A stretch of DNA of 39,892 nucleotides, taken from NCBI GenBank assembly GCA_001725505.1, contig MEGM01000009.1:1-39892 (forward strand). Reading direction: 5' to 3'. How positions within the stretch are numbered: the stretch's first letter is position 1; the number at the start of each line of letters is the position of its first letter. Origin of the DNA: Rubrivivax sp. SCN 70-15. GTDB taxonomy: Bacteria > Pseudomonadota > Gammaproteobacteria > Burkholderiales > Burkholderiaceae_C. Of the stretch, positions 713 through 13,442 are shown one piece after another. Both the position numbers and the translations under genes were made by a program. The notes under the pieces are model-generated. The model was not told the origin of the DNA. It did not search any database and worked only from the letters and a program-made list of their open reading frames with translations.

Positions 713-2464
713 TCACGCAGCAGGTGCTGAGCTGATCGTGTCAGCGCCAAACCAACCTGCAAGAGTGGCGAGCGCCTGTGGCGACAACTGCTGGGTGAAC
801 AGCAGCGTGAGCCGAGTCTTGGGCCTTGAGCAGGCAACGTAGAACAAATTTCGATTGCGTTCGTACGCGGCTTCCTTTGCCGCAGGCACAGCCTGCGCGC
901 CAGCAAGTTCCAGCATCTCGCCGAAGTTGTACTGATTCCAACCGCGACCGACCACCACAAGCACATTCTCAAACTCGGCGCCTTTAACTCCATGCTTTGT
1001 CTCAAAGGGCGAATGGCCATCGAGGTATTTACGAAGTGCCTTGATCTCCGCATAGGGAACCGCTCGGAGTTTCTCGAGTTCTTCCAGAGCAGGGGGTATC
1101 TCTTCACCTGCCGCCGTGTCGAAAGCACGCAACTCGCGCTCACGTTTTTCGACGGCTTCCGGGAGTCTTGGCCGCCTCAGCGCGTGCAGGTGGTCGATGA
1201 TCTGGCCGACCGTACCGGTTTCCCGCAGTGCGATCAGCTGCGTCATGGCGGTGTTCCACAATGCCTTATCGGCATGGCTGCGTATCAACGGCGTTCCACC
1301 GCCGAGTGCTTCGAACATGGCGCCGAACTTGCGCGCCATGAATGCGTCGCACGCGGGCTCGAGTTGATCCACAAAAAATGCGATGTGTGCATGTTCCTTC
1401 TTCGTGAAGGCTTCGTTGTAGCGAAACGTGGTGGGAAGGGACGAATAGCCCTGCTCGCTCGCCAATAGCCGATGCGTCAGCATCAGAATCTTCGTGTTAT
1501 AAGAGGACAAATCCCATCCGTCTTGCTCCAGTGTGGCTTTGACACGCACAAGAGTTTCATGACCGACATCAGAAGGCAGATCACCTGCCCAATGCGCCCC
1601 CTTCTGACGCTGACCTTGCCAGGCGTTTGTATGGAACACACGAACCTGCCCGACCGCTTCGGGATCTTTGACGAACTGCTTGAGCTCCGGCCGCATGCGG
1701 TTGAGGCAGTCGACCACGATCCTGACCGACCGGAAGTTGGCTTCTTTGCCAATTTCGGTCACGGCCGCATGCTCGAGCTTGCCGCACCCGCCACCGTAAA
1801 TTTTCTGCCAGTGATCACCAAAGAAACCGAACAATGGTGCTTCGGATTGACCGAGGAAATGGGTCTTGATCGCCTCAACCCAATCGTTGTCGGTATCTTG
1901 GTATTCGTCGACCAGGATGATCGGAAAGCGGTCAGCGATCATGCGACGGAACTTCGAATGCTCCATCAACGAGATCGTCAGAGGAAGCACGTCATCATGA
2001 TGCAAAGAAGCGCGATCATCACGGACGGATCGGTATCCGAGGCTGTACTCGATGGCGCGACTCCCTAAGCTGCCACCGGCTTCCTCTATGCGATCCTTCC
2101 ACGCAGGAAGAGATTCGACCAAGGCTCGGAGCGGCTTCTGGAAGCCGCTGATAAGTGACCAACAGAAGGCATGATTGGTCTCGCAAAAAATCAGCGGACT
2201 TCGATCCGTGCGCGCGGCAATCTCATCCTTGGCGACATTGGTGAACGTGATGCACGCGATCTGCTGACTTCGCTTGGGTAGCGTTTGCCCATCGCGCGCC
2301 ATCAAGAACTGCAGGGCCTTGATCAAGGAATAGGTTTTGCCGGCACCCGCGCCCGCTTCCAGGCGAAAGCTCTTGCCGGCATCTAGACATGCATACATGG
2401 CCTCCAGGGCGCGCCGGCTGGCGGCTTCTGCGGTGGACTCGACCTCAGCCATCGACCGCTCCAT
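713..2464 (-). CDS. UvrD/Rep-like SF1 helicase (GajB-like partner of the OLD nuclease)
   Basis: Walker A EAGAGAGKT, Walker B ILVDEYQDTD, C-terminal FYVACSRPKTRLTLLF; start reassigned to MERSMAEVE (2464), overlapping the end of the upstream OLD gene. Confidence 0.85.
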   Translation of the reverse strand: MERSMAEVESTAEAASRRALEAMYACLDAGKSFRLEAGAGAGKTYSLIKALQFLMARDGQTLPKRSQQIACITFTNVAKDEIAARTDRSPLIFCETNHAFCWSLISGFQKPLRALVESLPAWKDRIEEAGGSLGSRAIEYSLGYRSVRDDRASLHHDDVLPLTISLMEHSKFRRMIADRFPIILVDEYQDTDNDWVEAIKTHFLGQSEAPLFGFFGDHWQKIYGGGCGKLEHAAVTEIGKEANFRSVRIVVDCLNRMRPELKQFVKDPEAVGQVRVFHTNAWQGQRQKGAHWAGDLPSDVGHETLVRVKATLEQDGWDLSSYNTKILMLTHRLLASEQGYSSLPTTFRYNEAFTKKEHAHIAFFVDQLEPACDAFMARKFGAMFEALGGGTPLIRSHADKALWNTAMTQLIALRETGTVGQIIDHLHALRRPRLPEAVEKRERELRAFDTAAGEEIPPALEELEKLRAVPYAEIKALRKYLDGHSPFETKHGVKGAEFENVLVVVGRGWNQYNFGEMLELAGAQAVPAAKEAAYERNRNLFYVACSRPKTRLTLLFTQQLSPQALATLAGWFGADTISSAPAA

Positions 2465-4511
2465 CTGCGGAAGCTGCGGCCGCTTCCACGGCCAGTGCCA
2501 GTACTGGGTCGGGTACAGGCGCCTCGCCGGCGGCCAGCCAGCGAACACCGCCAAGGATGTACGTCGGCGCAGTCCATCCGGTCTCCGCGATCGCATGCTT
2601 CAATGCAAATTCGGACTTCTTCAGATCATCGGCCTTGCCTCGGGCTTGCATCTCCAACTCCTGCGGCGTCTTGCCGTTCAGCCCGAACATCACCGGATTT
2701 GCAAGAATGAAAGCATCCTCGAAAGTTCTCCCGCAGGGGCCGCCCTTTGTCTCAGCGCATTGGTAGGTAATGCGGTTTCGTGAATTCACCTTCTCCGCAT
2801 CGGACTTCGCAAGGAGACCGGCAAGCGTGAAAGGGTCGTCGTGGGAGAACCACGATTTCAAGCACGCATTGCTTGAATACGTTCCCTGATGGACCGCGCA
2901 TGCCTTGCCCCCAGCCTTCTCGACTGCGTCCAGGTCAGTGACGATCAGACTTTGGAGTTCAAGGAACTGGAGCAAGTCGAAGAAGAGGTGCGCGTAGGCG
3001 CCCCCTACTTCCATCACCGTCATGTATTGGCTGGACAACTTCGGACTGTCAGGCTCGGCTGTTTCCAGTTTCTTGATGATGACCGGAAGCAACAGCCGTT
3101 CGCTCAACCCTTCTACCAGCACAGCCTTGTCGGCGAAAAAAAGATCGCAACGCGTCAGCGTCATGTACTGGTGCAGAAACTTCTTCTCGGGCTCCGATGT
3201 TCCTTTCAGGCCCTTCCGTAAATCCTTGATCCTGGTCTGGCGGACACCTGCTGGTGCGCCAGGAACGCTTGTTCCAAGGAAGTATCGGATGCTCTCGAAG
3301 CCCGCCTCATTGGCAACATGCGACGAATGGGTCGACACGACGAATTGCACTGGCCACGGCGTCTTGTCCACCGTGCTGGCGACCAACTGCTGCGCAATCT
3401 TGGCCAACTGGCGGATAAAAACTTCCTGCATCTGCGGATGCAAGTGAGCCTCAGGCTCCTCGATGAAGATCAGGTGGACACCTGGCTCGGTCGCTTCCGC
3501 CCGAAATGCTTTGTAAAACCCGGCGAGCTGCAACAGGATGAAGATCAGGTTGCGCGCTCCCAACCCGTTGTAGGACTCAGGCAAGGTGATGCCGCTGTAC
3601 CCTGCGTAACGGACCTTGGTGAAGTTGGACAACAGTTTGCGCACATCGAGGATGGTCTCCGTATGCAATTCCTGTCCACCAAGTCCGGGGTAACCGAAGC
3701 TCTGCAGGGCAGGCACCAAGCTTTTGAGTTGGCCACTGAAGTTCGTATCGATCTGCGTTTGGATATCCTGGACAGCGCTCTTCAGCGCTTCGGCGACCTG
3801 TTTGTCGGCGGCATCCGCTGCCGGCGATGAAGCCGTCGCGAACAGGCTCTCAACCGTCTTGGCAAGCACATCCGATTCACGCGACGTCACGTCATCCAAG
3901 CCGCGCTGGGCATTGATGAAGCCGGTCTTCACCAAGCCTCGCAGAGCGCCTGGTTGGAGCTGACGCCGGTTGTCAGTGTCATTGGGGTCTTCAGCCCAAA
4001 TCTTGACGCCGAAGTCGCCAGGAATTCGCTCACGCAGGGCACGAAAGAATGCGATCCGTGTTTCGTCCGTTAGCGGCGTGGTCGGTTGATCCTCAAAGAA
4101 GCGTCCGAGCTGGCCGTCTTTCAGTTCGTAGCGCACCGCAACCAGTGCTTCTGCGCAGGCGGGGTCAAGATCGATCACGAAGGGGCTCAGGGGACCAAGC
4201 TGCGGCTGCGCCGGGTCATACTGAAACTTGAGTCGAAGCTCGATGGCAGGAATGAAGGCGCGGACGGCGTCGTCTTCTGCGCCGTTGTTTCTTGCTTCAA
4301 GGGCTGCACAGAAACCGTCATAGCAGGCGCTCGAGAAGTCCTCGAGCTGAAAGGCAGCTGTGCCATCTGCCATCAATCGGCGCATCACCTCGGAGAGGGA
4401 TGTCTTGCCGCTGTTGTTTCGCCCAACGATGACGGTCGTCTGGTCTTCCAGGGCAAGCTCAACGCCGGCCAAAAGGCGAAAGTTCTTGATCTCCACATGA
4501 TGGATGCGCAT
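2445..4511 (-). CDS. OLD-family ATPase/TOPRIM endonuclease (GajA-like / class 2 OLD)
   Basis: 688 aa; N-terminal GRNNSGKTSL P-loop, LIFIEEPEAHLHP Walker B, C-terminal TOPRIM-like KAVLVEGLSERLLLP and VTDLDAVEKAG; adjacent UvrD-like helicase. Confidence 0.87.
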   Translation of the reverse strand: MRIHHVEIKNFRLLAGVELALEDQTTVIVGRNNSGKTSLSEVMRRLMADGTAAFQLEDFSSACYDGFCAALEARNNGAEDDAVRAFIPAIELRLKFQYDPAQPQLGPLSPFVIDLDPACAEALVAVRYELKDGQLGRFFEDQPTTPLTDETRIAFFRALRERIPGDFGVKIWAEDPNDTDNRRQLQPGALRGLVKTGFINAQRGLDDVTSRESDVLAKTVESLFATASSPAADAADKQVAEALKSAVQDIQTQIDTNFSGQLKSLVPALQSFGYPGLGGQELHTETILDVRKLLSNFTKVRYAGYSGITLPESYNGLGARNLIFILLQLAGFYKAFRAEATEPGVHLIFIEEPEAHLHPQMQEVFIRQLAKIAQQLVASTVDKTPWPVQFVVSTHSSHVANEAGFESIRYFLGTSVPGAPAGVRQTRIKDLRKGLKGTSEPEKKFLHQYMTLTRCDLFFADKAVLVEGLSERLLLPVIIKKLETAEPDSPKLSSQYMTVMEVGGAYAHLFFDLLQFLELQSLIVTDLDAVEKAGGKACAVHQGTYSSNACLKSWFSHDDPFTLAGLLAKSDAEKVNSRNRITYQCAETKGGPCGRTFEDAFILANPVMFGLNGKTPQELEMQARGKADDLKKSEFALKHAIAETGWTAPTYILGGVRWLAAGEAPVPDPVLALAVEAAAASADGAVDG

Positions 4512-4770: not shown

Positions 4771-5916
4771 CTACGCGGTCGCCTCTTTCGAGAACTGTGT
4801 CCGCGCCAGATTTCGCAGCGCGGGGACTTCCTTGTCGAAGACTTTCTCCATTTTTCGCACGTGATCAACGAGCCAGTCGATCATGCTCGGCCAATTCTCT
4901 CGGTTATGCCCATCGAAAGGGGCGGCGCACTCAATGAGGGAAACCTTCTTGTCATCCATGCGCCGCCAGGAGAGCGCCCCACCGAATTCAGCTTCAAGTT
5001 GCTCACGGCGCGCGCAGAGGTGGTCAAACAGCGCCTTGTTTGCTTCCTTCGACCGTGTACCGAGCGCGAAGTCCACGCGTGCTTCGTCGCGGTTGAATAT
5101 CATCGAGTAGTAGATGCCGCTCGCGCCTGAGCCGGCATTGAGCCAGTGATCCCGGCTCGGGCTCACATTGGCGTAGAGCGCCACATTTGCCGTGCGAAGT
5201 GCTTCAAGGGCCGCGTGCCAGAAGTCGGTGCGCAGTTGATGCCGGGTCGCTTGGCCGCGCTCCGACGACTGCTCTTCATCCTCTTTCTCCGAGATACCGA
5301 TCATGAGTTCTTCGGCTTCGGGTAGCGGGATGACCTGCTCCATCGTGAGGAAGAGATCGTTGCCGTCCTTGAACGGTGTCGCCCGGAAACACTTCACGAA
5401 AACGCGATGCTTGAGGAGCCACAGGACCGTAGATGTCACTTCTTTACGGAACTGCGCAGCCACCATGATGAGGCGCTGATCGTTTCCAGGATTGAGCACC
5501 ACTTCGGCAAACTCTTCCTGTCCGAGGAAGTCGCAAATGAGATTTCTCGCGTCCTTCCCCTGGCCGGATTTGTCGAGATACTTCTGGAAGATCTCTGCGA
5601 TCTGCGATTTCGACAGCGTCGAGCAATACGACGCGTATTTGAGCGCCTGCCAAACAACGTCCTTCCCGGAGTCGTCCAGCTTGTTCTCGATGATGACCAG
5701 GCTTCCGTTCTTGTCGATGGCCAGCAAATCCAGCCGCTCGCGTGTGTCGTCGAAGCCGTCGAACTCTTTCTGGATGATCAGCAGTTCCTCCCCAAGCGCA
5801 TCGGGCTGGTTTGCCAACCACTCCTGAAGATGATGCCGCTCCGTGAAACCAAGCTCCGAGAAGCTCACCTCTTTCAGCTTGATGATACGGTTCGATGCAT
5901 GGTTGATTCGGAACAT
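4771..5916 (-). CDS. DUF4268-like protein with PD-(D/E)XK-type N-terminal nuclease fold
   Basis: 381 aa; RLDLLAIDKNGSLVIIENKLDDSGKDVVWQALKYA resembles D...ExK nuclease core; C-terminal region resembles DUF4268. Confidence 0.7.
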   Translation of the reverse strand: MFRINHASNRIIKLKEVSFSELGFTERHHLQEWLANQPDALGEELLIIQKEFDGFDDTRERLDLLAIDKNGSLVIIENKLDDSGKDVVWQALKYASYCSTLSKSQIAEIFQKYLDKSGQGKDARNLICDFLGQEEFAEVVLNPGNDQRLIMVAAQFRKEVTSTVLWLLKHRVFVKCFRATPFKDGNDLFLTMEQVIPLPEAEELMIGISEKEDEEQSSERGQATRHQLRTDFWHAALEALRTANVALYANVSPSRDHWLNAGSGASGIYYSMIFNRDEARVDFALGTRSKEANKALFDHLCARREQLEAEFGGALSWRRMDDKKVSLIECAAPFDGHNRENWPSMIDWLVDHVRKMEKVFDKEVPALRNLARTQFSKEATA

Positions 5917-7851: not shown

Positions 7852-9849
7852 TCACTGGGTCTGCAGGCTACGGCCGTAGCCATTGGCAAGGCGCTGCGCC
7901 ATCTCGGGAAAAAGGATGCCGAGCACGGCGTCATAGCGCGCAGGCCGCAGGTGCGTCTCGTCGCCGGCATCCACCTTGTCGATAATGCCTTGCCGCCAGG
8001 ACGCATAGCGCTCGGCTTGCTTTGGAGTGAACCGGGTCTCCAATCCATAGGCCTTGACGGCCATGGGGTACAGCGTGTGCCATTGCTGGTAGCCGGGGCC
8101 GCTTTGCGTGATGGCGTTAAGCACTTGGTATCCCGTATCGAATGCATAGCCGATGCCCCGGTTGTGCTGGATCGACAGCAGCCGTGAAACGATGCCAGCC
8201 ACACCCACCATCTCCGGGTCGGCGGCGCCCGGATAGCCGTGCGCAGCAAGGGCTTCTGCAGCCTCCATCAGCCGCAGCCAGGGTTCGCTGTCTTTTCCCA
8301 ACAGCACGGGCGCTGCGCCCTCCCCTCTGTGTGCACGCCGGGCTTTGTCGATGCGGGTATTGGTGTCGTGGAACTCCGTGGCGGCGGCCAGATAGATCAA
8401 GCCCCATTCCGATGCTGGCGTCGCGAGCAGTCGGGGACGCCGCAGTTCGGCCAGACGCTCTTGAAAGCGGACCGTGACCGGATGCTGGTCCAGTTCCGCT
8501 TCGAGGATCTGACGGCAGAGCCGCCAGGTCGGGTGATGAACCCAGCGCTTGCCGACGGTTTCGTTCACCACCAGGTGGCGCAAGCCTTCCCGGGTCACCC
8601 GGCCGCCGAGCGAGCCGATGTCGATTTCCAACGTCGGCAGGTTGAGTTCCCGGATGCGACGCAGCTTTTCCTGATCAATGCCGTGGGTCACAGTGACCTC
8701 GATCAGCACGGTTCGAGGCCACTGTTGGCTGCTGTGGGTGTCTTCTATCAATTCTTCAAAGGCCCCATCAAGCCAGGTTTCGGTGAACCCGTAGATATAG
8801 GGCCGCGGCTCGCGCAAGGTGCAGATGACGTCGGGGACGATGCTGCCCTGGCGTTGCTCCAACTGGGTGTTTTCCAGTGGCAGCGTCTCGGATGATGTTC
8901 CCCACTGAGCGCGAAGCGTGTTGTCCTCCCATTCGCCGCCGAATTCGTCGGGTGCGTAGCGGGTCACTTCGACATAGAGGCCGGGCGTCGTGATCTGCGA
9001 CGCCTGTTCCAGGATCGCTTTGACTTCACTGTGCAAGAGGGTCTCGCGACGCCATTGCTGAGCGACGGATGGATCCAGGTCCAGGGGCAGATCCTGATGA
9101 AACAGTGCTTCGTCCGCATCCCCCCAGGCATCCATGGCGTCGTGCGCGGCCTGGTGGGCCTGCGTGCTCGCGGTCGCGTGCAATGCCTGGTCGCTCCAAT
9201 GCGCGCACCAGCGGATGTCCGGAAGCAGGCGCAGCCGCGCACGAATCTCATCCGGCGACATCATCGCAATAGCGGGGTCGGAAAGGGATAGCGTGACGAT
9301 GGCCCGCCCATGGCCATCGCTGCCTGCGTCGCGTTGCCCGGTGAGATCGACGATGAGTTCCCGGCCATCTGGCAGCGTCAACAGCGCCGTGGCGTGATCA
9401 TGGAGTACGGCGCTGACAATGGAAATACGCTCCTCGCCTGTCTCTGCCCAGCCCTCATAGCCCTGGCCGCTGAAGCCAGTGGCGGAGGCCGACATTCTGC
9501 GTCTGGGTAGATCGATGATGCCCTGCTCCTTCAAGTGTCGAATCGCGGCCAGCCGCGCGGCAACGAGGGTGCAGTCATCTTTCTGGGCGCCTTTGGGGTG
9601 GCGGAAATGCGCCGTCGGATTCCGGCGCAGAGGTTGCCCCGCCAACACCGGCGTCAGCGAAAGGTTGCAGGCCGGGCATTGGCATTCGGCGCTTTCTTCG
9701 ACGATCTCAGCGTCGTGGATGTAGCGCGGCTCGCCGGTGCGCGAGTCGTGCCCCCATTTCAGCGGCACGGTGGCGGCATTGGGCACGGGACGCGTCGGTG
9801 CCGTATGGGTGTCAACCTGCCAGATGCTCGAACCTTGCGCCATTGCCAC
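7852..9849 (-). CDS. CoiA-like protein with Cys-rich N-terminus and nuclease-like core
   Basis: 665 aa; CQCPACNLSL, HFRHPKGAQKDDC, then LLHSEVKAIL and IVPDVICTLRE...VLIEVTVTHGIDQEKLRRIRELNLPTLEIDI, resembling CoiA/PD-(D/E)XK. Confidence 0.65.
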   Translation of the reverse strand: MAMAQGSSIWQVDTHTAPTRPVPNAATVPLKWGHDSRTGEPRYIHDAEIVEESAECQCPACNLSLTPVLAGQPLRRNPTAHFRHPKGAQKDDCTLVAARLAAIRHLKEQGIIDLPRRRMSASATGFSGQGYEGWAETGEERISIVSAVLHDHATALLTLPDGRELIVDLTGQRDAGSDGHGRAIVTLSLSDPAIAMMSPDEIRARLRLLPDIRWCAHWSDQALHATASTQAHQAAHDAMDAWGDADEALFHQDLPLDLDPSVAQQWRRETLLHSEVKAILEQASQITTPGLYVEVTRYAPDEFGGEWEDNTLRAQWGTSSETLPLENTQLEQRQGSIVPDVICTLREPRPYIYGFTETWLDGAFEELIEDTHSSQQWPRTVLIEVTVTHGIDQEKLRRIRELNLPTLEIDIGSLGGRVTREGLRHLVVNETVGKRWVHHPTWRLCRQILEAELDQHPVTVRFQERLAELRRPRLLATPASEWGLIYLAAATEFHDTNTRIDKARRAHRGEGAAPVLLGKDSEPWLRLMEAAEALAAHGYPGAADPEMVGVAGIVSRLLSIQHNRGIGYAFDTGYQVLNAITQSGPGYQQWHTLYPMAVKAYGLETRFTPKQAERYASWRQGIIDKVDAGDETHLRPARYDAVLGILFPEMAQRLANGYGRSLQTQ

Positions 9850-10149
9850 CTCCGTGTTGCGGGAAATTCATCCGTGCCTCAGTTGTGGGAGCTGGCCGTA
9901 TTGTTTGCGGCTGGCGTACGGAGTGAGGTGTCGAATGCTGTGCTGACCAAGGATGCTACAGGTCCTGGCAGTGCTGCACTCCATCCTGGGCGTCTCCGGC
10001 CAAGGGGCTATGGCCGGCCGCGCTGTCGTGCTGCGCATCGAGCCACCTTCGGCGTCTCGCCCCTGTCGGGCTTCCATCGTTCCCTCGCGCTGCTCGGCTG
10101 ACGCCTGCGGCCCGGCTTCCAGCTTCGGGCCTGCGCGCTTGCGCTTGCC

Positions 10150-10403
10150 GTGCGGTCGGCGTGTTGGAAGGCCGTTGCCTGTCCAGCCATCTTTCCTGAA
10201 CTCATCACCTTGCTCGCGACTGTAGCCCGCGGCCGTGTGCCGTCAAGGCGCGCCAGGCCGTGTCCTCGCTGCGCTGCGGGCCGCACCAACCTGGCGCTTG
10301 CCTCCTTGACGGCACACGACCGCGGGCTCCCTTTCGTCGCGGGCGATGAACTCAGGAAAGACGGTGGCAACGAGGCCAACCGGGTTCTTCGTGCCGACCG
10401 CAC
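10150..10403. repeat. Long imperfect inverted repeat upstream of the DUF932 gene
   Basis: Symmetric matches about ~10276: GTGCGGTCGGC (10150-10160)/GCCGACCGCAC (10393-10403); TCTTTCCTGA (10190-10199)/TCAGGAAAGA (10352-10361); AGCCCGCGGCCGTGTGCCGTCAAGG/CCTTGACGGCACACGACCGCGGGCT (10224-10328). Confidence 0.88.
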
Positions 10404-10486
10404 CGAACAGCCGGAAGGCTGGGCTCCGAATCTAGGAACCCGGTGTGCGGTTTTCTTCAACAGCCAACTTTGTCAGGAGAAAGACC

Positions 10487-11311
10487 ATGCTTGCAACCCG
10501 TTTCGCTTCCCACTCCCCGGCGCTGCGCAGCGACTACCCGCTGTCCGATGACCAGATTCGCAGGGTGGCTCCGTCCATCTTCGCGGACGCGCCGCATGAA
10601 AGCCGTTCCGAGCGATACAGCTACATCCCCACCGCCGCTGTTCTGACCGAGCTTCGCAAGGAAGGGTTTCAGCCCTTCATGGTGACGCAGACCCGCGTGC
10701 GCGATGAAGGCAAGCGCGAGCACACAAAACACATGCTGCGCCTGCGCCACGCCAGCCAGATCAACGGCGCGGAAGCCAATGAAATCGTGCTTCTGAATTC
10801 GCACGACGGCACGAGCAGCTATCAGATGCTGGCCGGAATGTTCCGTTTCGTGTGCAGCAATGGGCTGGTGTGCGGTGACACGGTGGCCGATGTGCGCGTG
10901 CCTCACAAAGGCAACGTGGCCGGGCACGTCATCGAAGGCGCATACGAGGTATTGAGCGGCTTCGAGCAGGTCAAGGAATCCCGCGACCTGATGCGCGGCA
11001 TCACCTTGGACGATGGCGAATCCGAAGTGTTCGCCCGCGCCGCGCTGGCCCTCAAGTACGACGACCCCGACAAGCCCGCGCCCATCACGGAAAGCCAAAT
11101 CCTGATGCCGCGCCGCTTCGACGACCGCCGCCCGGACTTGTGGAGCGTGTTCAACCGCACCCAAGAAAACCTGACCAAGGGCGGATTGCATGGCCGCGCC
11201 GCCAATGGTCGCAGGCAGCAGACCCGCCCCGTGCAGGGCATTGATTCCGACATTCGCCTGAACCGCGCCTTGTGGCTGCTGGCCGATGGCATGCGCGCTC
11301 TCAAAGCCTGA
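10487..11311 (+). CDS. DUF932 domain-containing protein
   Basis: Start MLATRF after AGGAGA RBS; YSYIPT...FQPFMVTQTRVRDEGKREHTKHMLRLR...NSHDGTSSYQMLAGMFRFVCSNGLV typical of DUF932. Confidence 0.88.
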   Translation: MLATRFASHSPALRSDYPLSDDQIRRVAPSIFADAPHESRSERYSYIPTAAVLTELRKEGFQPFMVTQTRVRDEGKREHTKHMLRLRHASQINGAEANEIVLLNSHDGTSSYQMLAGMFRFVCSNGLVCGDTVADVRVPHKGNVAGHVIEGAYEVLSGFEQVKESRDLMRGITLDDGESEVFARAALALKYDDPDKPAPITESQILMPRRFDDRRPDLWSVFNRTQENLTKGGLHGRAANGRRQQTRPVQGIDSDIRLNRALWLLADGMRALKA

Positions 11312-11381: not shown

Positions 11382-13442
11382 ATGAACGCCGTTAACTACA
11401 CCGAGGCCCAAGCCGTCACCACCGCCGCCAATGTGCTGCAAGCCGCCGACCCGAGCAAGCACATGATTCTGGTTCCGTTGTCGCGGCTGGTGCTGCGCCC
11501 TGCGGGTCGCAACGTGCGCAAGACCCCGCGCATGTCCATCCCTGAACTGGCCGCGTCCATCCAGCGCGTGGGCCTGCTGCAAAACCTGATCGCGATTCCC
11601 GCCAGTGATGGCGAGCACTACGAGGTGGTTGCCGGTGGCCGTCGCTTCGCCGCATTGAAGCTGCTGGCGAAGAAACATCGCATCGCAAAGGATTGGGAGG
11701 TGCCTTGCCTGCGAGTGGCCGATGGCACGGCCCGCACCGCCAGCCTCACGGAAAACGTGCAGCGTGAAGCCATGCACCCGGCAGACCAGTTTGAAGCCTT
11801 TGCAGCGCTGGTGGCCGAAGGACGGCCCATTGAGGACATTGCAGCGGATTTCAGCGTTACCCCGCTGGTGGTGCAGCGCCGCTTGAAGCTCGCTAATGTT
11901 TCGCCCCGGTTGATGGCTGACTACCGGGCCGATGCGGTCACGCTCGACCAGCTCATGGCGCTGGCCGTCACCGACGATCATGCTTCGCAAGACGCCGCGT
12001 TCTACGATGCGCCGCAGTGGCAGCGCAGTCCGTCCGCGCTGCGCGAACGCCTCACCGAGCGCGAGATTGATGCTTACCGGCATCCGCTGGTGCGATTCGT
12101 CGGGCTGGACACCTACGAAGCCGCAGGCGGCGGGATTCGCCGCGATCTGTTCGCGGAAGGCGATGCGGGCGTGTACCTCAACGATGCGGCCTTGCTGGAA
12201 CGGCTGGCGCACGAGAGGCTGGCGGGCATCGCCGCCGAGGTGAAGGCCGAAGGCTGGGCATGGGTGGATGCTGCACACGCCGCCACCTATGCCGACCTGC
12301 AAGCGTTTCAACGCGCCCCGAGAGAGCGGCGCACGCCGGGCAAGCGCGAAGCCCTGCGCATCGAGAAGCTGCAAGCCAGGATGCGGGAGGTAGCCGAAGC
12401 CCTCGATGCCGCGATGGAAGCCGAGGACGAGGACAAGGCCGAAGCCTTGCAGGAGGAAGGCGAAGTCCTGGGCGAGCAATTGCAGGCGCTGGAAGATGGC
12501 TTGCAGGGGTACGCCCCGAGCGTGAAGGCCGCAGCCGGGGCCATCGTCACCATTGACCGCAACGGCGAAGCCGTGATTCATCGCGGGCTGCTGCGCGAGG
12601 CCGAGGCCAAGGCACTGCGCACGCTGGAAAGGCTGCGCCAAGGGTTCAGCGGCGAGGATGCCGAGAGCGACGACGAAGGCGACACGGCAGACGAAGCGCA
12701 AGCCCCCGCCATGTCCGACCGGTTGGCGCAGCGCTTGAGCGCGCACCGCACCGCCGCGCTGCAAATCGAAGTCGCCCGGCATCCCCAAGCCGCGCTGGCC
12801 GCTGTGGTGCATGGCATGGTGCAAACCGTCCTGCAGGGCAGCCACTACGGGCACGACCTGCCGCTGGGCGTGCGCCTCACGGTGCAAGATCGGCTGGAAG
12901 GCATGGCCCCGGACTGGCCGGAATCGCCTGCCGCCGTGGCGCTGCGCGAATTGCAGCAGGCATGGGGCGGCAAGCTGCCCGAGGGCAGCGCCGAACTGTT
13001 CGCCGCGCTGCTGGTGATGGAGCAAGGCGAACTGGTGAAGCTGCTGGCCGTGTGCGTGGCTTCCACGGTGGACGTGGTGACGCCGCGTGCCACGCCGCAC
13101 CAGCCCGGTGCGAAACTGGCGCAGGCCGTGGGCCTCGACATGGCCGCATGGTGGCAGCCGAGCGCAGAAGGCTACTTCAAGCATGTTTCCAAGTCCGTGA
13201 TTCTGGATGCCGTGGGCGCGTTTGCACCGGATTCCGTCAACCGGCTGGCGAAGCTGAAGAAGGCCGATATTGCCAGCGAAGCCGAACGGCTGGCCAATGG
13301 CACGGGCTGGATGCCCGCCATCTTCAAGGCCGAAGACACGCAGGAGGATGCACCCGAGGAAGGCCCACAGGATGCACAGCAGGACGACGCGAAAGAAACC
13401 GCCACCGTGGCGGATGAACCCGTCGAGGCATTGGCCGCTTGA
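11382..13442 (+). CDS. ParB/RepB/Spo0J-like nuclease-domain protein (ICE/plasmid type)
   Basis: ~686 aa from MNAVNYTEAQ; VPLSRLVLRPAGRNVRKTP...ELAASIQRVGLLQNLIAIPASDGEHYEVVAGGRRFAALKLL...LTENVQREAMHPADQFEAF ParB core. Confidence 0.9.
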   Translation: MNAVNYTEAQAVTTAANVLQAADPSKHMILVPLSRLVLRPAGRNVRKTPRMSIPELAASIQRVGLLQNLIAIPASDGEHYEVVAGGRRFAALKLLAKKHRIAKDWEVPCLRVADGTARTASLTENVQREAMHPADQFEAFAALVAEGRPIEDIAADFSVTPLVVQRRLKLANVSPRLMADYRADAVTLDQLMALAVTDDHASQDAAFYDAPQWQRSPSALRERLTEREIDAYRHPLVRFVGLDTYEAAGGGIRRDLFAEGDAGVYLNDAALLERLAHERLAGIAAEVKAEGWAWVDAAHAATYADLQAFQRAPRERRTPGKREALRIEKLQARMREVAEALDAAMEAEDEDKAEALQEEGEVLGEQLQALEDGLQGYAPSVKAAAGAIVTIDRNGEAVIHRGLLREAEAKALRTLERLRQGFSGEDAESDDEGDTADEAQAPAMSDRLAQRLSAHRTAALQIEVARHPQAALAAVVHGMVQTVLQGSHYGHDLPLGVRLTVQDRLEGMAPDWPESPAAVALRELQQAWGGKLPEGSAELFAALLVMEQGELVKLLAVCVASTVDVVTPRATPHQPGAKLAQAVGLDMAAWWQPSAEGYFKHVSKSVILDAVGAFAPDSVNRLAKLKKADIASEAERLANGTGWMPAIFKAEDTQEDAPEEGPQDAQQDDAKETATVADEPVEALAA

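Follow-up and report, generated by a model that had tools for sequence, protein, structure and literature searches.

Genes and features of the locus

The 39,892-nt window analysed here (contig MEGM01000009.1 of Rubrivivax sp. SCN 70-15) has a DNA hairpin of 254 bases ahead of the genes for a DUF932 protein and a ParB-like protein, both on the plus strand. The DUF932 protein (10487..11311) matches PF06067 with E=2.7e-56 and is 53% identical to the DUF932 protein of the F plasmid, while the ParB-like protein (11382..13442) matches ParB_N with E=1.8e-6 and is 31% identical to the ParB-like protein of the F leading region. The earlier note, made from the sequence alone, had counted RadC together with these two families; the DUF932 and ParB-like assignments held, whereas RadC was not detected among the tested ORFs of the window. 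In the related element L007, radC is located 5' of the equivalent point.

In the annotated plasmids L007 and L008, an integrase gene, radC and cargo are found to the left of the repeat, and genes for DUF932, ParB, DUF736, DUF2958, DUF2285, RepA, ParA, DUF2840, S26 peptidase and relaxase follow from the repeat onward, in agreement with the core order of Tn4371-type ICEs (DUF932-ParB-...-RepA-ParA-TraF-relaxase). The tested genes after ParB in the window are not ICE core genes. Both oriT and relaxase are absent from the window's contig, with relaxases encoded on other contigs, and the window copy could therefore be a rearranged one.

To the left of the repeat, the window's cargo includes a Gabija pair, GajB and GajA (713-4511), and a PDC-S11 candidate defence gene is present at 4771-5916. 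Just left of the repeat there is a sequence of ~80 bp (10070-10150) that was also found in L007, L029, L030, L032, L006 and other loci. A second copy of it lies 0.6-3.3 kb further left in 11 loci, flanking variable cargo, and this repeated sequence may mark a site of cargo exchange.

Structure and conservation of the fold-back element

The earlier note had described an imperfect inverted repeat of ~250 bp that ends ~85 bp before the DUF932 ATG. Arm mapping, folding and covariation place the element at exactly 10150..10403, and the gap from its end to the ATG (10487) measures 83 nt. The minus strand is its probable strand of action. On that strand, an outer stem joins 10150..10160 (3' side) to 10393..10403 (5' side), a middle stem joins 10187..10220 (3' side) to 10336-10364, and a promoter stem joins 10224-10246 to 10306..10328 (5' side); helix mapping assigns 10247-10302 to the apical part. 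With DNA parameters, the minus strand folds at -102 kcal/mol (z -8.7) and the plus strand at -101 kcal/mol (z -9.0), compared with -66 to -68 for shuffled sequences, none of which (0/200 for either strand) equalled the native fold.

The repeat is conserved in Tn4371-type ICEs. It was matched in 71 of 300 genomes drawn from the same bacterial family (E<=0.001), several of these matches being short pieces only, and in 173 plasmid records (E<=1e-5); 66 distinct copies were extracted and 51 were aligned. When the structure of the window copy is applied to these 51 distinct homologues, 90.3% of cells pair, and sliding one arm by 1-3 columns lowers the pairing to 33-43%. Changes on both sides were observed at 22 pairs versus 10.4 in shuffled alignments (0/500 as high) and in 83 cells versus 24.7, so that the compensatory changes whose absence the earlier note would have held against its reading are indeed present. 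Both-side changes occur at 12 pairs of the promoter stem, and one pair of the outer stem shows a compensatory C-G to G-C replacement in 12 of the 51 sequences. In L057, L058 and L060 the letters of the promoter stem are largely different with pairing partly kept; in L057, the copy examined for its neighbours, ParB follows without an intervening DUF932 gene.

At distant DUF932 loci (38-59% identity) the repeat is absent. One of these, L042 on contig C100 of the same genome, encodes a second DUF932 type (57-59% identity) with an ssb gene directly upstream, making it another leading-region-like operon. A natural mutant was found in L055 (19063-19352), where a deletion of ~80 nt removed one arm of the hairpin. 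Among the candidates examined, the covariance-model match L098 proved to be a chance hairpin. Several short strong hairpins, which differ by compensatory changes between the two elements, are clustered between parB and DUF736 in L007 (23571-23920) and L008 (23541-23960); they were rejected as a second copy of the element, being short and devoid of the -35/-10 pattern.

A predicted strand-specific promoter within the hairpin

The 3' arm contains, on the minus strand only, the pattern TTGAYG-N16-TACRGT, represented in the window by a -35 hexamer TTGACG (10241..10246), a 16-nt spacer and a -10 hexamer TACAGT (10219..10224). The predicted fold pairs the whole -35, leaves three bases of the -10 (10221-10223) open in a conserved internal loop and has a bulge at 10210-10214, near the expected start; the 3' side of the middle stem would hold the part of the promoter that lies downstream and is transcribed first. 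The minus-strand loop opposite the -10 (10329..10335) is variable, with 0.64-1.76 bits per column versus 1.19-2.0 for the -10 itself.

The spacer is 16 nt long in all 65 countable homologues. Among the same 65, the -35 reads TTGACG in 54, TTGATG in 10 and TTGGCG in one, and the -10 reads TACAGT in 53, TACGGT in 10 and TACCGT and CACGGT in one each; TACNGT is thus present in 64/65, and the six columns of the -10 carry 1.86, 2, 2, 1.19, 2 and 2 bits. The -10 of the window matches TATAAT at four of six positions, with a spacer of 16 rather than 17, and the equivalent position on the other arm matches at just 1-3 of six. A neutral scan of 9840-10500 returned a single sigma70-like site, exactly that of the hairpin, against an expectation of 0.0 +/- 0.2, and none on the plus strand. 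Within the hairpin this candidate promoter reads into DUF932, toward the minus-strand 5' end; in the duplex it faces left, away from DUF932.

Probable transfer direction and leading region

In F and RP4, nic normally has the relaxase-side inverted repeat on its 5' side along the nicked strand, and the nic site of MOBP systems reads ATCCTG|C. The oriT of this ICE family has been mapped to the traF-traI intergenic region, which holds a conserved 20-bp sequence and, after it in the direction of traI, an inverted repeat (PMC11448139). We found the 20-bp sequence in 8 homologous elements, in one orientation and 10.2-15.2 kb to the right of the fold-back repeat; the minus strand at this oriT reads CCTTTTGTCTTGCC, a sequence similar to the MOBP nic. 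From the placement of the relaxase-side repeat and the nic-like hexamer, we infer that the minus strand is the transferred strand, which would make traF...parB-DUF932 the leading region, with the relaxase gene entering last. The earlier note had regarded a lagging position of these genes as evidence against its proposal, and the 8 homologous elements, together with the gene directions in L007 and L008, put DUF932-ParB in the inferred leading region instead.

The strand-specific -35/-10, the covariation and the probable leading-region placement together favour that half of the earlier reading which proposed a single-stranded-DNA promoter, as do the G-T bias toward the minus strand, the F homologues downstream of Frpo1 and Frpo2 and the arrays of pOLGA2 described below. 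On the other side stand the imperfect -10 and the 16-nt spacer, the lack of sequence similarity to Frpo, the more distant DUF932 genes that have no such repeat, and the absence of oriT and relaxase from the window's contig. On balance, we put the probability that the element is a working ssDNA promoter at roughly 0.72.

The hairpin tip, a motif shared with plasmids and phages

The apex motif GGTGCGGCCCGCAGCGCAGCGAGGACACGG (10257..10287, minus strand) consists of a GC-GCA-GC mini-hairpin, a representative of GNA-loop mini-hairpins in general, together with GAGGACACGG. GNA-loop mini-hairpins such as GCGAAGC are a DNA-stabilised fold. Extraordinarily stable DNA mini-hairpins have been described (PMC10527192). 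Like the strand-specific hexamers, this tip goes beyond what the earlier note had noticed: it is a previously unnamed motif common to many plasmids and ssDNA phages. A search with the element core found the apex in 366 plasmid records (E<=0.1), including those of Leisingera, Phaeobacter, Sphingobium, Gluconobacter, Xanthomonas and Aeromonas as well as small plasmids. The plasmids concerned belong to alpha-, beta- and gammaproteobacteria, and this taxonomic spread is a lower bound. In the Phaeobacter plasmids L131 and L113, the first gene downstream of the tip encodes a zincin-like metallopeptidase (ArdC-like).

The motif can be written as the expression GTGCGGCCCGCAGN{2,10}CGAGGACACGG, which a few tip copies, e.g. 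that of L060, escape. All 44 distinct contexts matched by this expression contain a mini-hairpin with a fully paired stem of 2-5 bp and a loop of three bases, which is GCA, GAA or GTA and, once, ACA; the reversed pattern, used as a control, gave 0 matches in 399 genomes. A 51-nt query comprising the tip and a short stem matched three Microviridae, namely two Rhizobium phages (92% over 50 nt, E=5e-11) and the Eel River basin pequenovirus (88%, E=2e-9), each match being intergenic by annotation and on the viral strand as recorded; no similarity to coliphage Microviridae was found with this query. Searches of literature text with the tip sequence returned unrelated papers only.

The strands that bear the tip are those exposed as single strands during the life cycle: the Microviridae viral strand and, in a rep/mobV plasmid of 2970 bp, the rep-sense strand. 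These short, tip-alone forms have no recognisable -10 or promoter, which makes the tip separable from the promoter, and we infer that it is a single-strand initiation signal. One might then suppose that the element as a whole is only such a signal, its hairpin starting second-strand synthesis and its RNA serving as a primer and not as mRNA. The promoterless phage and plasmid copies are what this explanation would predict, but in ICEs and MOBF plasmids the tip is extended by a long stem with an invariant -35/-10 spacing directly before leading genes, and pOLGA2 repeats the design for each operon, which a single priming site would not need; we therefore consider it unlikely.

The design in MOBF plasmids

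MOBF plasmids of Burkholderiales have the same design with unrelated stems and the pattern TTGAYK-N16-TACNGT. Four copies are present within 12 kb in pBMUL01, and one each in bglu_4p and a Pandoraea plasmid. The most extensive array is that of the MOBF plasmid pOLGA2 (L142), where ~36 kb of nearly unidirectional small genes (9360-45065) contain 11-13 copies. Of 17 long gaps that separate unidirectional genes in the region 9.4-45 kb, 11 hold the design and two more carry a TTGTCC variant; every copy lies opposite the genes, never on the gene strand. The genes of the array are of the leading type, and the coupling protein and MobF relaxase encoded directly beyond it are as expected if this is a leading region.

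Putting these observations together, we would give about even odds to a broader proposal, namely that the tip is an unrecognised initiation signal of Microviridae, small and conjugative plasmids and ICEs in alpha-, beta- and gammaproteobacteria, acting via a conserved host factor, and that in conjugative elements a -35/-10 stem was added to it, giving an ssDNA promoter family unrelated in sequence to Frpo and present, in some plasmids, once per leading-region operon.

Duplex DNA, mRNA and mobile repeats as alternatives

TTGACG-N16-TACAGT could also be an ordinary double-stranded promoter on the minus strand, serving the left gene (a 665-aa ORF in the window), with the palindrome as its operator. 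In duplex DNA the hexamers do face left, but the left-neighbour gene differs between elements and its direction is not conserved (plus strand in 17/28, with a rough choice of ORFs), which makes a leftward duplex promoter a poor reason for conservation, and a paired 130-nt arm, compensatory changes and a shared tip are all unneeded by such a promoter. We regard this explanation as improbable.

The other half of the earlier reading, a structured 5' leader RNA of DUF932 acting as attenuator or riboregulator, would fit a repeat that immediately precedes the gene. Where selection keeps a hairpin on one strand, G-T pairs are tolerated in that strand, and their complements are A-C. Read on the minus strand, 30 column pairs have G-T departures only versus 11 with A-C only (p=0.004), and the direction is unchanged if plus-strand folds of several sequences supply the structure (p 0.01 to 0.38); these p-values are optimistic since the sequences share ancestry. 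The mRNA would correspond to the plus strand, whereas both the tolerated wobble pairs and the DNA-type GNA loops of the tip are on the minus strand, and this disfavours a leader. In addition, the start predicted from the -10 excludes one arm from the transcript, the scan of 9840-10500 found no plus-strand promoter before the repeat, and no Rfam family matches the element at gathering score, with chance miRNA matches only below it. We did not retain this half of the proposal, which now appears highly improbable. A functionless MITE-like or other repeat remnant, which long inverted arms amid differing flanking genes might call to mind, can be practically discounted given the fixed position before DUF932-parB or parB, the base-paired conservation across distant hosts and the lack of any visible target-site signature.

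A model for action on incoming DNA

As an ssDNA promoter, the hairpin looks like a switch that would allow transcription of the incoming single strand upon cell entry. In conjugation of a Tn4371-type ICE, the minus strand would enter the recipient with the traF-to-DUF932 region first and, as predicted with support from covariation, fold back on itself. The predicted fold would provide a duplex in which the conserved TTGACG is paired and, across the 16-nt spacer, TACAGT lies in a pre-opened internal loop. Host RNA polymerase could then bind the hairpin and transcribe outward, with the 5' portion of the entering strand as its template, crossing DUF932 and parB toward oriT. Once the second strand is made, the duplex promoter would face the opposite way and transcription of DUF932 would end. 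The tip would be a separate module, probably the signal that starts complementary-strand synthesis on ssDNA, because it is also found alone in Microviridae and small plasmids.

Comparison with known single-strand systems

The Frpo ssDNA promoters of plasmid F were reportedly described by Masai and Arai in 1997. Frpo1 precedes ygeA-ygeB, Frpo2 precedes ssb, yfjA, yfjB and psiB, and early expression needs both (PMC9849209); in the gene order of the F record, DUF932 comes after Frpo1 and a ParB-like gene after Frpo2. The element resembles Frpo1 and Frpo2, whose geometry was compared via the published description only, in its long imperfect hairpin on the transferred strand (here the inferred one), the rebuilding of -35/-10 by folding, the leading-region position, transcription toward oriT (here predicted) and the downstream gene families, DUF932 as for Frpo1 and ParB-like as for Frpo2. 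It differs in having no sequence similarity to Frpo (the R1 model gave 14.1 bits and E=1.1 on the F region), in its tip and in belonging to a MOBP ICE. A plain -35/-10 regular expression missed Frpo's own boxes in F. The element thus probably works like Frpo, yet by sequence it is not a member of that group.

In the literature we found one published set of ssDNA promoters, the Frpo/ssi group, which belongs to F- and I-type plasmids, along with candidates based on that group. The Frpo-like candidates of anti-defence islands (PMC11541004) are likewise candidate ssDNA promoters in leading regions, placed ahead of genes of the anti-defence type. As far as the parts of that paper considered here describe it, the survey was based on similarity to five known Frpo/ssi sequences and to candidates from four islands, at detected oriTs; those parts mention neither the fold-back family nor Tn4371 ICEs, and the oriT of a Tn4371-type ICE went undetected by oriTfinder (PMC11448139). 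Hairpins that start second-strand synthesis on ssDNA are also known as sso, ssi or primosome sites and the ICEBs1 sso (PMC4595007); the tip resembles them in its presence on the single-stranded form of phages and a small plasmid, its priming role here being putative.

A second ssDNA promoter family, unrelated to Frpo and located in widespread ICEs with resistance and degradation cargo, would show how establishment genes can be expressed before the element becomes double-stranded. The tip motif and TTGACG-N16-TACNGT would give a sequence handle for leading regions whose oriT is unknown, and a tip common to ssDNA phages points to one host factor that may serve unrelated elements.
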